Positions 3,631-11,900 of a stretch of DNA of 31,469 nt are shown one piece after another. The translations under genes and the position numbers were made by a program. This stretch comes from a virus. The stretch spans positions 1 through 31,469 of IMG/VR virus record IMGVR_UViG_3300006033_000424. One strand, 5' to 3'. The notes beneath the pieces were generated by a model. It did not search any database. It saw only the letters and a list, made by a program, of their open reading frames with translations, and was not told where the DNA came from. Position 1 is the first letter of the stretch. Every line of letters begins with the position of its first letter.

Positions 3631-3827
3631 AGGCCGTATTGGTTGGCCTCGTGGACGTCGGCGACCACTACGAGATCGCACTGTCGGTCGGGAGCGGGGT
3701 CGTCTGCCTACACCCGCAACAGGTTGCGTCCGTCGTCGATTCCCTGACCCTGCTCCTTGAAGGCCTCGGCTATGTGCCGTTTGATGAGGGCGAGGAGGAT
3801 GACGACCCTGATGAGCGGGTGCATTGA
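3627..3827 (+). CDS. Hypothetical 66-residue acidic protein
   Basis: A small protein with a beta-rich N-terminal half (MKAVLVGLVDVGDHYEIALS) and a strongly acidic tail (DEGEEDDDPDER). The start overlaps the previous stop as ATGA and the stop overlaps the deaminase start as TGATG, so it sits in a tightly coupled three-gene run. The acidic tail might mimic nucleic acid or bind a basic partner, but this is only a guess. No family is recognised. Confidence 0.7.
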   Translation: MKAVLVGLVDVGDHYEIALSVGSGVVCLHPQQVASVVDSLTLLLEGLGYVPFDEGEEDDDPDERVH

Positions 3828-4294
3828 TGGAGCGGCAGGTATTTGAGACGCAGGACAAGTGGGACCTGCGGTTTCTGGCCCTGTCTCAGCACATCGCCGG
3901 TTGGTCGAAGGATGACAGCACGCAGGTTGGGGCGGTTATCGCCGACCCTGACAGGCGTGTGGTCAGCATCGGATTCAACGGCTACCCGAAGGGTGTAGCG
4001 GACCAGATCCTGAGCCGGGAGCAGAAGCTGCTTCGCACGGTTCACGCCGAGGCGAACGCCCTTCACTTCGCCAACCGGGACGTGCATGGGTGCTCGATCT
4101 ATATCACCCACCCACCTTGCTGTAACTGTGCTGCACACCTGATCCAGCGGGGAATCTCAAGGGTGATTTTCTACGCCCCCTCCCCGTACTTTCTGGAGCG
4201 GTGGGGCGACTCATTCAAGGAGTCGCTCAGGATGTTCCGGGAGGCCAAGGTGATCACACTGAGTTCTGAACTACACCACCACGAAGGAGTTTGA
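3827..4294 (+). CDS. Deoxycytidylate (dCMP) deaminase
   Basis: A 155-residue zinc-dependent cytidine/deoxycytidylate deaminase. The zinc and catalytic motifs are HAE within TVHAEANAL (about residue 75) and PCCNC within PPCCNCA (about 99-104), the family's HxE...PCxxC arrangement. It should convert dCMP to dUMP, the substrate of the thymidylate synthase encoded two genes downstream, so the two form a short dTMP supply pathway. I chose the ATG at 3827, which overlaps the previous stop as TGATG. A TTG one codon upstream is also in frame. No strong Shine-Dalgarno site is visible, so translation is probably coupled. Confidence 0.9.
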   Translation: MERQVFETQDKWDLRFLALSQHIAGWSKDDSTQVGAVIADPDRRVVSIGFNGYPKGVADQILSREQKLLRTVHAEANALHFANRDVHGCSIYITHPPCCNCAAHLIQRGISRVIFYAPSPYFLERWGDSFKESLRMFREAKVITLSSELHHHEGV

Positions 4295-4296
4295 AG

Positions 4297-4467
4297 ATGC
4301 TTTCTACCGAATACACCATGTTGTTGGGCCTTCGTGCCCGAATGCCCAAGGAAGACCAAGACCTCATCGACGCAGCCGTAGTGGAGGTAAAAGCTCTCGT
4401 CGAGAGATACGGCGACCACGGTCTTGTTGCCATAGCTTTGGTTGGCGCTGAGTTAGGGGAGAAGTGA
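4297..4467 (+). CDS. Hypothetical 56-residue protein
   Basis: A short frame (MLSTEYTMLLGLRARMPKED at the start, ending VGAELGEK) with a good AAGGAG site upstream. It fills the space between the dCMP deaminase and ThyX exactly: the deaminase stop is two bases before its ATG, and its TGA is one base before the ThyX ATG. The sequence looks like a compact helical protein (LIDAAVVEVKALVERYG). No family is recognised. Perfect spacing, ribosome binding site and sensible composition support it as real. Association with the two nucleotide enzymes is inferred from position only. Confidence 0.75.
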   Translation: MLSTEYTMLLGLRARMPKEDQDLIDAAVVEVKALVERYGDHGLVAIALVGAELGEK

Positions 4468-4468
4468 G

Positions 4469-5371
4469 ATGAAGAAAGAAGAAATCTCTTGTGAGTACAT
4501 CACGCACATGGGCGACGACCTCAATGTCGTCAACAACGCTCGCGTCTCCTTCGACAAGGAGAGTGGGTGGCATCGTCTGTGCTGGAGCTGTGACTACGTT
4601 GGTCCGGCCACTGATGACCTGTGCCCCCAGTGCGGAGAGGACAATACAGGTTGGTTGGATGAAAGCGGTGTCCTGCCGGTTACTGACCAGAGTCTGATCC
4701 GTTTCCTCGCCACAGGTTTCCGCAAGTCCGAGTGGAACGAGATGATCCAGGGCGTCCGTTCGATGAGCGACTTGGAGATCCACAAGCTGTTCCTGAAGCT
4801 GCGGCGCCACGCCACCCACTGGGCACCGATGGCGCACCCCCATGTTCAGGTTCGGATCACGGCGCCGATCTTCCTGGCCCGCCAGTACGTGAAGCACCAG
4901 ATCGGCCTGACGTGGAGCGAAGTGTCTCGCCGGTATGTCGATGACGAGCCGACGTTCTGGTTCCCTGAAGGCTGGCGGGCTCGGCCAGAGGGTGGGATCA
5001 AGCAAGGGTCGAGCGACTCCTTTATCACTTCGATCCGCGCCGAGGACGAGAACGGAGAGTTCTACGTTTCTCCGGACGACATGGCCGAGGTCGCCACTGA
5101 CGCCGCCGTCGCCCTGTACCTGGGTATGGTCAACGGTGGGGTCGCCCCAGAACTTGCCCGAATCACCCTGCCGCAGAACATGATGGTCACCTGGCGTTGG
5201 ACGGGTAGCCTCGCCGCCTTTGCCAGGGTTTGCCAGCAGAGACTTGACCCGCACGCGCAGAAAGAGGCGCAGATTCTGGGACGGAAGATCGGGTACATCT
5301 TAGGGGACCTGTTCCCCGTGAGTTGGGATGCAATGGTAGGCGACTGCCTTGACCACCTTGACGTGAAGTAA
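4469..5371 (+). CDS. thyX: Flavin-dependent thymidylate synthase ThyX with zinc-ribbon insertion
   Basis: A 300-residue ThyX homologue, which would methylate dUMP to dTMP using methylenetetrahydrofolate, FAD and NADPH. Family landmarks are NNARVSF near 22-28, LIRFLA at 76-81, the core APIFLARQY at 132-140, SRRY at 153-156 and a C-terminal block with ARITLPQN and RLDPHAQKE. Two features are odd. A zinc-ribbon-like CWSC (38-41) and CPQC (52-55) pair is inserted after the N-terminal ARVSF motif, and about 25 extra residues lie between LIRFLA and HWAPMAH. The usual RHR of the ThyX motif reads KHQ at 142-144. The gene sits just after the dCMP deaminase, consistent with a dUMP-to-dTMP pathway. The ATG follows a GGGGAG leader. 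Confidence 0.9.
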   Translation: MKKEEISCEYITHMGDDLNVVNNARVSFDKESGWHRLCWSCDYVGPATDDLCPQCGEDNTGWLDESGVLPVTDQSLIRFLATGFRKSEWNEMIQGVRSMSDLEIHKLFLKLRRHATHWAPMAHPHVQVRITAPIFLARQYVKHQIGLTWSEVSRRYVDDEPTFWFPEGWRARPEGGIKQGSSDSFITSIRAEDENGEFYVSPDDMAEVATDAAVALYLGMVNGGVAPELARITLPQNMMVTWRWTGSLAAFARVCQQRLDPHAQKEAQILGRKIGYILGDLFPVSWDAMVGDCLDHLDVK

Positions 5372-5491
5372 CCTCACCGCCCTCCGCACGGAGCCACTCG
5401 GCTCAGGCCACTGTCAGGTCAGCATGACGGACATTCTAATAAGGATGCTGCGGGAAAACGTGTGGAGGGCACCCATATAAGGATAAAAATA

Positions 5492-5779
5492 ATGGGCTGC
5501 TTTTACTGTAATGAGTGGGCGAGCAAGAAACTCGATGACGTCCTTGTGTGCGAGGACTGTTTTCAGACAGTCAAACACATGACGACGGACAAACAAACAC
5601 GACGCCAGACAATTATTGATCGGTTGCAAAAAGTTCACGGCCTATTACTCAAGGCCGACCAGTCTCCGGTTATTTCTGACTGGATCAAGCGGGTTGGTGG
5701 GCGGCTTGACTATCTTGGTGCGTCGCTAAAAACGACTCAGAAAACGACAGGTCCGCTGAAGATCAAGAAGTTCAAATAA
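5492..5779 (+). CDS. Small CxxC-CxxC zinc-finger-like protein
   Basis: A 95-residue protein with two CxxC pairs (C3/C6 and C20/C23) that could form a single zinc site, followed by a basic helical region (DKQTRRQTIIDRLQKVHG) and a Lys-rich C-terminus. This resembles small DNA-binding or regulatory phage proteins but matches no family I can name. An AAGGAT site lies eight bases before the chosen ATG. An in-frame GTG at 5462 is possible but has no better leader. Base composition is more AT-rich than the upstream operon and matches the adjacent excisionase-like gene, so it may belong to the integration module. Confidence 0.75.
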   Translation: MGCFYCNEWASKKLDDVLVCEDCFQTVKHMTTDKQTRRQTIIDRLQKVHGLLLKADQSPVISDWIKRVGGRLDYLGASLKTTQKTTGPLKIKKFK

Positions 5780-8693: not shown

Positions 8694-8981
8694 TTAAGCC
8701 CTACACAGGTGAACGGTTATCGTCTCTGAAGGGTTAGAGTACCAACGTTGAACTCTGAATCCGCCAGCCACTACATAGCTAAAAACCTCCGACCCGGAAA
8801 CATTAGATTTGTGGAAAACAAACCATGTCCCGTCATTAGATACTTCTGAGTTAGGGATTGTAACTAGCATTGTTCCAGCAGGCAGATTTATAGAATAACT
8901 TGACACATACCTGGTAAGTCGGTCACTTACATCCAGTACTTTAGCGCCACCAGCATCAAAGACTCTTAACCCATAACTCAT
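8694..8981 (-). CDS. Tail-tip accessory protein of the MSYG type (short paralogue)
   Basis: A 95-residue protein starting MSYGLRVFDAGGAKVLDVSD, all beta in pattern. Its ATG overlaps the J stop as ATGA and its stop is one base before the next ATG. Its beginning resembles both the following 238-residue protein and the last residues of the J-like protein (KVFDASGVKRVQLGD), which suggests a shared small beta module at the distal tail. No family function is established to my knowledge, and virion association is inferred from position and pattern. Confidence 0.75.
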   Translation of the reverse strand: MSYGLRVFDAGGAKVLDVSDRLTRYVSSYSINLPAGTMLVTIPNSEVSNDGTWFVFHKSNVSGSEVFSYVVAGGFRVQRWYSNPSETITVHLCRA

Positions 8982-11900
8982 ACTGTTAAATCCCCAAGTT
9001 GCACTCTCTTAACTCCACTTGCATCAAATACCTTAATAGCACGGGAGTCCATCTCCATTCTTGCACCAGATACAGCCGTCTTTACACTAAAGTTCGAAGT
9101 ACCTACTAACGCAATACTGCCGATCTGTGCAGACCCTATTGCCGCATTAGCAATGTATGTAGAAACGTTGCCTGGTGTAATCTGATCAATACCAGACATC
9201 GCACCACCTGGGGTGGGGTTATTAATCGTGCTTGAAACCACACCAAATGCTGTGGATTCAAACCCTACTGCCCAACCTGTTGCCCATTGAGCCTCTGAGC
9301 GGTTAGAGAAGCCAGCTGTAACGTCAATAACTCTGATCTGTGGATGGACCCAAGTGCTATTTAACTCTCCGATATAGATACAACACTTCGCGCCGTCGTG
9401 ACCGAATCGAACTGTTTTTGATGCGGCAGGCGCCCCCACCATCTTCGCGTATGTGTTGAGCCACGCACCTGTACCAGCATTAGCCCAGTTGTACCCGCCG
9501 ATCTCATAAGTGCATGTCTTGCCGCTCGCGTACTCGTAAATCTCAACGTTGAACTTCAACATTGTTGCCGACCACGTTTGTGGTAAGGTAATCTTCAATG
9601 CTCCAGTAATAGAGGGGTTTGATGTACCGAGTGAGCCACCTCCTGGTAGCTTAATGAAGGTCAAATTGTTGCTGGAGTCGTTGTTTAAAATCTGAGCGTC
9701 AGTTGGGCGTGCGGTAATATCCCCCCAATTAACAGAGATTGGAGACCCGGAGCTGAGTGTGACATTCCCAGCTGCGTCATAGATCGTGAAACTGGTTCCA
9801 TCCCATGCTGCGCCACTACTGCCGGGGGTTCCCACTCGCCACTTGTAGTTCCCGTCGTGGTAGCCCTGCCAGATGCCCTTGCCGGTCACCCACGATGCCG
9901 CGCCACCACGAATCCAGCCGGTTGCGTCGAGTGTAATGTTCCCCGAGGTCATAGTCCCGAGGTTTGCGCTGATGGCCGACAGATTGGTGACGGCAAGCCG
10001 ATCAGCTGTGACGCTGTTTGCGACCAGGTTGGAACCATCACGAGTAAATACCCACTGGGTTCCGTCCCACCCGTACAAACCTCTCAAAGTCAGGTCAGCC
10101 ACGTCCAGGAAGACTGCCAACTCTCCGCCAACCTCAGATGGGTTAGCCGGCAGAGTCGTCACTTTCGTGATACCCCCTGAAGCCAGAGGTGTCGCCGAAA
10201 CCACAGAAGATACGTTGAGGCCTGTAGTCCCAAACACGTCGTAGAACGCAACACGGAAGTACACAGGCATCCCAGGCTGAAGACCTGTCTTCATGAAAGC
10301 GTTATCCGAACCTTGGTAAATCTTGTAGGCCTCTGTCGTTGGGACTGTGTTAGTGGGGGACATCCACACAATCATGCCGACAAGGTCTGAGTCGCTGGGG
10401 CGCTCTGACATGATGCCTACCTGGCCGGGGCCTGGCTCCAACGTAACCGCACCGACAGCGGGCGCAGGGTTGCTGGCAACCAGAACAGCAGGGTTGGCGC
10501 TTTGCCCAACGTAAGAGTGAGCGAACACCTTGAAGGTCACTGACCTACGTGGCCCACCATCTCCAAGGTTCATCGCGTAGGTATAGGTAAACCACGGGTC
10601 CTTCGAGGACACCTCTCTCAACAGCGTGGCTCCGTCGTACACCTGAACGGTGTAGCGAACAGCAGTCTCCACGGGGTCCCAAATGATCGGGCAGTCTTGA
10701 CCACTAAAGCTAGGGTTAAACCTGAGATTCTGTACGTCTGGTTCAGTCAGGGACTCATTAACGACATGAATTACAGTGACTGGCATGCCCGTGCGCCCCA
10801 GCGCATTCTCCGCGCTGATTGAGATGGTGTAACTGCCTGCTGCGACGTCATCAATGTCAAAGCTGGGCTGAGAGGTGTAGGCCTCCCGGGGGCTATCGTC
10901 TTCCCGACGCCACCCCACGAGGTACCTTGCAGCTCCGGAACTCGGGGCAGTCCAACTCACGGCAATTCTGGTCGAGTAGTCGACTGTGTTGAGTCTCCTG
11001 ACCTCCGTTTTAGTGACCACGTTGGCCACCACTCCAGGCACTGTCGAAAGAACGCTGGTTTGCCTTGGTTGCAAGGACAAACCCTGCTCGATCAAGGCGT
11101 ACTTTCCGGGGATATGCTCAAGTCCCGTGATCTCCAGTATCCCAGGCTCTGCCTCCAGAACAGAGACGACACGCCACAGCTCCGGTAGCAACGTCTCTGT
11201 AGACAATACCCAGACGGCTCGATCCACAGGGGTCGCGTCGAGCGGGGCAATCAAAGTCACCTCGGTGACTTCCTCCGGATCGTCACCACTCCAGGCGATT
11301 GCTCGCTCCTGAGACACCCCAGCAGGCATCATGACGGTAATCGAGTAGGACTTACCTGGCTCCAACGTAACGGGCGCGTCCAACTGAAGGGTGGTAGTGG
11401 TTGCCCCCATGAGTCTACCTGCTACACGAACACCGGAACGAGCAGAGTCAGAGACCTGGATGATGTCTCCCGGCATCAGGCCAGAACCCTCGATTGACGT
11501 TCGAAAGCTGATCGTATCCGTCTCTTCCCGCTCTGTCAGAAGACTCCACAAACCAAACCGATGCGCCTGACCACGGCTGGTACAGCCAAAGGCCACGACC
11601 TCCGTCTCGCGGACACCGAAAAGATTGATACCCTCCCGATCCTCAACATACTCTGTTGTTTGGCGATAAAGATTTTCAGGATCGTTCCAGGAGACAAGTG
11701 CGACTGTGTGCCTCGCCCCTCTCGCCGTACCACTGTAGGTAAACAGACCATTGATGACGTTGGCGGCTGTGAAGATCCTGACAGGGTCAGCGGGCCTGTC
11801 CTGAGAGCAGAAAACTGAGTTGGAGTGCCAGTAGGTAATCCCTCTGAAGATGCTTGCCATGTTCATCAGAACACGGAGAGCCTCCTCTCTAGTTTGGAGA

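Follow-up and report, generated by a model that had tools for sequence, protein, structure and literature searches.

A putative zinc ribbon in the folate loop of a phage ThyX and the recurrence of cysteine-rich loops among its viral relatives

In the flavin-dependent thymidylate synthase ThyX of T. maritima, residues 27-37 form the folate loop, which limits the access of folate and is reshaped on the binding of dUMP (PMC11940539). R78 of this enzyme faces the N1 and O2 atoms of the reduced flavin, stabilising FADH-, and the same account states that a basic residue often fills such a role in flavoproteins (PMC11940539). According to PMC3498832, the substrate dUMP is hydrogen-bonded by R78, R80, S88 and R90, with R78 and R80 given as conserved contacts. 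Searches of the open-access journal literature returned no paper that describes a ThyX with a zinc ribbon.

Here we describe a ThyX gene with such a putative insert in the window, a 31,469-base stretch of viral DNA. Tail fibre, tape measure, head protease and portal genes lie on the minus strand; genes for a phosphoesterase, an SbcC-like protein and a dCMP deaminase precede the ThyX gene, and an excisionase and an integrase follow it. The tail, head and portal genes together with the excisionase and integrase identify the window as part of the genome of a temperate tailed phage. The features discussed below are as follows, L001 being the IMG/VR contig with the closest ThyX found (69% identity over 300 positions).

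3824..4294, plus strand: dCMP deaminase upstream of ThyX (PF00383, E 6.4e-20; phrog_174, E 5.7e-43; 64% identical to that of L001)
4291..4467, plus strand: 58-aa open reading frame between the deaminase and ThyX (phrog_18620, E 2.8e-10, 'membrane associated protein')
4469..5371, plus strand: ThyX-family flavin-dependent thymidylate synthase, 300 aa, ATG start (Pfam, phmmer against PDB, AlphaFold2 model)
4562..4663, plus strand: 34-codon (102-nt) in-frame insert with CWSC and CPQC, about residues 32-65, edges good to a few codons (absent from L001 in protein and DNA alignments)
4712..4813, plus strand: second insert, about 32 residues long and located within 82-115, ahead of H117 (the equivalent of T. 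maritima H53) and behind the helix that follows the folate loop (alignment)
4892..4900, plus strand: KHQ, residues 142-144, replacing R78-H79-R80 of T. maritima ThyX (alignment; viral loci)
5462..5779, plus strand: small CxxC...CxxC protein between ThyX and the excisionase and integrase (37% identity over 86 aa with a product of L001 at about 8978-9319)

Identity, fold and flavin motif of the ThyX gene

The product of 4469-5371 matched the Pfam family Thy1 (PF02511) with an E-value of 1.3e-28 and 100.5 bits against a curated cut-off of 24.8, and it matched ThyX chains in the PDB with a phmmer E-value of 4e-14. Its AlphaFold2 model, built on a 50-row alignment, had a mean pLDDT of 90.5 and a pTM of 0.86, and gave a VIA Z of about 19 with both T. 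maritima ThyX and PolB. The landmarks SRRY and HAQ that the initial annotation had read from the sequence were confirmed, at S153-R154-R155-Y156 and H262-A263-Q264, and the model placed the insert on an intact ThyX fold. In the 50 rows, which comprise the window and 49 viral relatives, S27, H117, H143, E151, S153, R155, Y156 and R231 were among the invariant residues. The phmmer alignment equates them with S30, H53, H79, E86, S88, R90, Y91 and R147 of T. maritima ThyX, in a numbering for which a 12-residue tag on the PDB construct was inferred and which is consistent with S30, H53 and R78. R147, and with it R231 of the window ThyX, we take to be catalytic. Judged by these alignments, the catalytic positions apart from R78 and R80 are conserved in the window ThyX.

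The residues K142-H143-Q144 do stand in place of RHR, as had been annotated. Their description as a variant of RHR(x7)S held for the substitution but not for the spacing, since the window reads KHQ(x8)S, one residue longer, and thus lacks the classical motif. The KHQ itself had been presented as an oddity, and it turned out to be the commonest form among related viral ThyX. IMG/VR was scanned with an alignment of the family (one of the two search patterns spans residues just past KHx and not KHx itself), and among the best 80 loci KHQ occurred in 47 (41 by regular expression and 6 read off printed misses) and RHR in none, the other forms being KHK (15), KHT (9), KHI (3), KHM (3), KHV (2) and KHE (1). 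The flavin motif had this additional residue in most of these viral rows as well. The 20 loci from the phage collection had KHK (8), KHQ (6), KHM (3), KYT or KYL (2) and RHR (1). The idea that KHQ marks an inactive or exotic enzyme was dropped as leading reading in view of its being the commonest form among the viral relatives. On these comparisons RHR(x7)S does not define the viral ThyX branch, and Pfam Thy1 is not keyed to the motif alone.

Since K142 retains a basic residue, the property ascribed to R78 would be kept. The equivalent of R80 is a glutamine in the window ThyX, so that its substrate affinity or specificity could differ. Across the viral KHx-type ThyX this position was occupied by Q, K, M, T, I, V, E or S; a reported dUMP contact is thus replaceable over a large branch of phage enzymes.

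The insert after LIRFLA was also present, with a length of about 32 residues and not the 25 estimated initially. Residues 77-117 number 41 in the window ThyX versus 9 in 137 of 154 aligned rows, and the long form was found in 17 of the 154, including Klebsiella and Acinetobacter phages, which deprives the second insert of the peculiarity attributed to it. It appears to lie just before H117, the equivalent of the H53 that stacks on folate or flavin.

The insert in the folate loop and the closest relative

In the phmmer alignment, with the inferred 12-residue tag offset, the segment ARVSFDM corresponds to residues 27-33 of T. maritima ThyX, and the folate loop 27-37 to residues 24 to about 34 of the window ThyX together with the insert. 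Because the insert is aligned inside residues 27-37, the ribbon would interrupt the folate loop. The annotated cysteines C38, C41, C52 and C55, in CWSC (38-41) and CPQC (52-55), were all verified, and 100 shuffles of the window produced 0 matches to a ThyX N-terminal signature followed by a double CxxC, indicating that the occurrence of this pattern is not a matter of chance.

The probable zinc ribbon of the initial annotation gained support from the CxxC knuckles, from Pfam zinc ribbons below threshold and from a predicted hairpin. Two CxxC knuckles and a beta hairpin make up the general anatomy of zinc ribbons, and both were present in the insert according to its sequence and the AlphaFold2 model, in which strands 35-38 and 44-46 flank the first CxxC and the block means of pLDDT over residues 31-70 are 91, 84, 83 and 75. 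The top Pfam matches of a 50-aa piece containing the insert were zinc ribbons below their cut-offs (DZR, E 0.0014; Zn_ribbon_NUD, E 0.0065); DZR (PF12773) scored 19.1 bits versus a cut-off of 27.3. The insert therefore appears zinc-ribbon-like by anatomy, without being a member of DZR. When the piece was folded alone, its pLDDT was 75, and the structural matches listed were mainly zinc-ribbon or zinc-finger chains, with Foldseek E-values of 0.39 or worse and every VIA Z under 5. As to the origin of the ribbon, a search of the phage collection with the ribbon alone returned chance-level matches only.

The ThyX of L001 lacks the 34 ribbon codons in a clean in-frame absence, seen in protein and DNA alignments alike, and shares KHQ and the second insert with the window ThyX. 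Both loci have the gene order phosphoesterase, SbcC-like protein, small open reading frame, deaminase, ThyX, small CxxC protein, helix-turn-helix protein and integrase, the roles in L001 being read off translations, with the deaminase and the CxxC protein compared by alignment. The next relatives, L104-L108 and L112, have no cysteine at the ribbon site either, which favours a gain of the ribbon in the line of the window.

The initial annotation had suggested that the ribbon might bind the small protein encoded next door. This suggestion found no support: in L001 no counterpart of the 58-aa frame separates the deaminase gene from that of ThyX, so that L001 lacks both that gene at this place and the ribbon, a single pair that is indecisive, and the one match of the frame in the phage collection was a weak one to a Microcystis phage (E 2e-3). 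The deaminase retains an intact zinc motif of HAE and PPCxxC, and the small CxxC...CxxC protein gave only weak family matches in Pfam and PHROG.

Recurrence and descent of cysteine-rich folate loops

Over 154 aligned rows the length of the folate loop ranged from 14 to 57 residues. Long inserts were mostly cysteine-free in many phages, and two or more cysteines were found in the loop of only 3 of the 154 rows, the window included. Among the unselected near relatives none of 77 loops had more than one cysteine (3 further rows gave no loop by regular expression), and cysteine made up 0.4% of the loop residues in this set (7 of 1746). This rules out the ribbon as a trait common to a whole clade of characterised ThyX. 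Unlike KHQ and the second insert, it kept its distinction among the near relatives; similar ribbons recurred elsewhere.

Besides that of the window, at least 18 distinct loops of viral or prophage ThyX have three or more cysteines at the ribbon site; they were collected from 295 loci with a ThyX frame, and 4 of the 18 lie in shortened frames (L183, L229, L234 and L250). A DNA pattern scan of IMG/VR for a ThyX N-terminus followed by two CxxC returned 13 contigs, 8 with the motif in frame; L177, L182, L184, L186 and L189 were set aside as DNA-pattern matches that have no in-frame double-CxxC loop. A looser scan required the N-terminus and one CxxC, and a scan for ribbons deeper in the folate loop returned nothing beyond L178 and L179, which had already been found. 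Among the matches listed, the pattern scans gave 67 distinct loops (13 further rows gave none), and a CxxC was present in 17, of which 16 had at least three cysteines and 14 at least four, an enrichment partly built in because one scan required two CxxC. By a tally of the one-CxxC scan alone, 12 of the 13 CxxC loops among the matches listed had at least three. A similar pattern in bacterial genomes picked out two contigs of the collection. L301, from Aminobacter sp. J41, encodes a ThyX with a loop identical to that of the IMG/VR contig L188, on which ground we took it for a prophage; L302 had no ThyX match. A 388-aa viral ThyX (L181:6871-8034, minus strand) combines a four-cysteine folate loop with an in-frame domain in the third variable loop, after KQGSS, which by eye appears to be of HNH type.

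ThyX trees were calculated with the columns of the folate loop and second insert excluded. Rows under 185 aa, rows over 345 aa unless ribbon-bearing, rows with no loop by regular expression, near-duplicates and L181 were left out, and L273, with three cysteines plus a CxH, was scored as having no ribbon. The state of the ribbon changed at least 11 times on a 158-row quick tree and at least 13 times on a more careful 45-row tree, in which 13 ribbon rows are joined by their 32 nearest ribbon-free relatives, both values being minima on uncertain trees with many weak inner branches, in which gain and loss are indistinguishable. A single inherited ribbon on the ThyX tree was rejected (13 rows versus 32; p-AU 0.0019; log-likelihood 649 lower). 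Five well-supported sets of the 45-row tree mix ribbon-bearing and ribbon-free rows:

window and L001: support 100/98
L252/L301 set: support 100/100
L003/L123 set: support 98/92
L281 set: support 99/91
SIO1-like set: support 100/100

The loops of L303 (ICBM1) and L304 (SIO1), for which the Celeribacter phage L009 stands in the tree, are short and have no paired cysteines, and L185, a member of the last set, which matches them at 71.7% and 68.9%, respectively, has a loop with four cysteines. The ThyX proteins of L281 and L252 belong to separate supported sets and are 48% identical overall, and their loops agree by eye at 21 of 29 positions, which suggests an exchange of the loop between them. 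The common pattern on these two diverged backbones is CxHCGTGxDExGNPxCWLxDDVC. The ribbon of L281 had no matches in the phage collection.

Possible roles of the ribbon and comparison with known systems

We consider it probable, from sequence and model, that the window encodes a functioning ThyX which receives its dUMP from the dCMP deaminase next to it and carries a putative structural zinc ribbon on its folate gate. The deaminase encoded just upstream would supply dUMP, from which the window ThyX would make dTMP with methylene-tetrahydrofolate and reduced FAD, and the folate loop that opens and closes the folate site would carry the inserted four-cysteine ribbon. The most likely role of the ribbon would be a structural one limited to its surroundings, with a small metal-stabilised domain giving order to the loop or offering an additional contact surface beside the active site, and phages appear to have gained, lost or exchanged such ribbons at the folate loop many times. 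The comparisons show the family and predicted fold, the conserved catalytic positions, the insert and its absence from L001, the recurrence at one site and the rejection of one origin on the ThyX tree; the binding of zinc, the synthesis of dTMP and an influence on the gate are what we infer in this proposal.

The ribbon may instead be a neutral or nearly neutral passenger in an insertion-tolerant loop, binding zinc only for its own folding and having no effect on catalysis, a reading to which we give somewhat less than an even chance. The wide range of loop lengths, mostly reached without cysteines, makes it a serious rival, and it is favoured by the ribbon-free sister L001 and by the contrast of L303 with its ribbon-bearing match L185. 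On the other hand, the four cysteines were kept in all five related loops compared by eye (L180, L250, L239, L197 and L234), in which much else differed, and this argues for selection on metal binding. The repeated appearance of ribbons at one site also speaks against a passenger, as do the alike loops of L281 and L252, which look as if a useful module had been exchanged.

Zinc ribbons are common interaction modules, and the placement of this one on the folate gate and its recurrence in several clades would fit a docking or regulatory device that governs the access of folate, either by recruiting a partner such as a folate enzyme, a reductase or a further enzyme of nucleotide metabolism or by responding to zinc or redox state. 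The solitary phage-collection match of the 58-aa neighbour counts against such a role, which we regard as unlikely. Somewhat more doubtful still is the most far-reaching version, in which ribbons were built repeatedly on the folate gate in at least five ThyX lineages and exchanged as a cassette that controls the enzyme, as a metal- or redox-responsive lid or as a dock for a partner that delivers folate; if true, this would give ThyX a mode of regulation or channelling that is not known for it. That the altered dUMP and flavin contacts of KHQ have led the clade to make another modified pyrimidine nucleotide and no longer dTMP is very improbable: position 80 is variable over the viral set although described as conserved (PMC3498832), and the top-ranked structural match was PolB, a UMP/dUMP methylase, but PolB ties with T. 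maritima ThyX in Z, the remaining catalytic positions are kept, the neighbouring deaminase yields the usual substrate, and no further base-modification gene was recognised among the scanned proteins, which cover part of the window's genes.

ThyX is a bacterial drug target, and its folate loop helps to set the order of substrate binding. A ribbon-bearing phage ThyX and its ribbon-free sister of 69% identity therefore form a natural pair for studying how the gate functions and whether it can be regulated.

Compared with known systems, the window ThyX has the fold of the canonical TM0449 of T. maritima (PDB 1o26, 8reo and others; rmsd 2.0-2.2 over about 200 residues) and most of its active-site positions, whereas TM0449 has RHR(x7)S where the window has KHQ(x8)S, and has neither a zinc ribbon in its folate loop nor an insert before H53. 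The KHx-type ThyX of Pectobacterium phage phiTE, phiEco32 and roseophage SIO1 resemble it in having KHQ or KHK for RHR, SRRY and, mostly, a flavin motif of equal length, but have no four-cysteine folate loop. The Schitoviridae-type ThyX of Klebsiella and Acinetobacter phages (L005, L020 and L022) carry the insert after LIRFLA as the window does, together with KHK and a short cysteine-free folate loop, in contrast to the KHQ and cysteine-rich loop of the window. The ribbon-bearing viral ThyX, including L179, L180, L185, L187, L239, L252, L281 and L301, belong to different ThyX clades and have ribbons mostly unlike that of the window in sequence and spacing, and they share with it a cysteine-rich loop at the same site.
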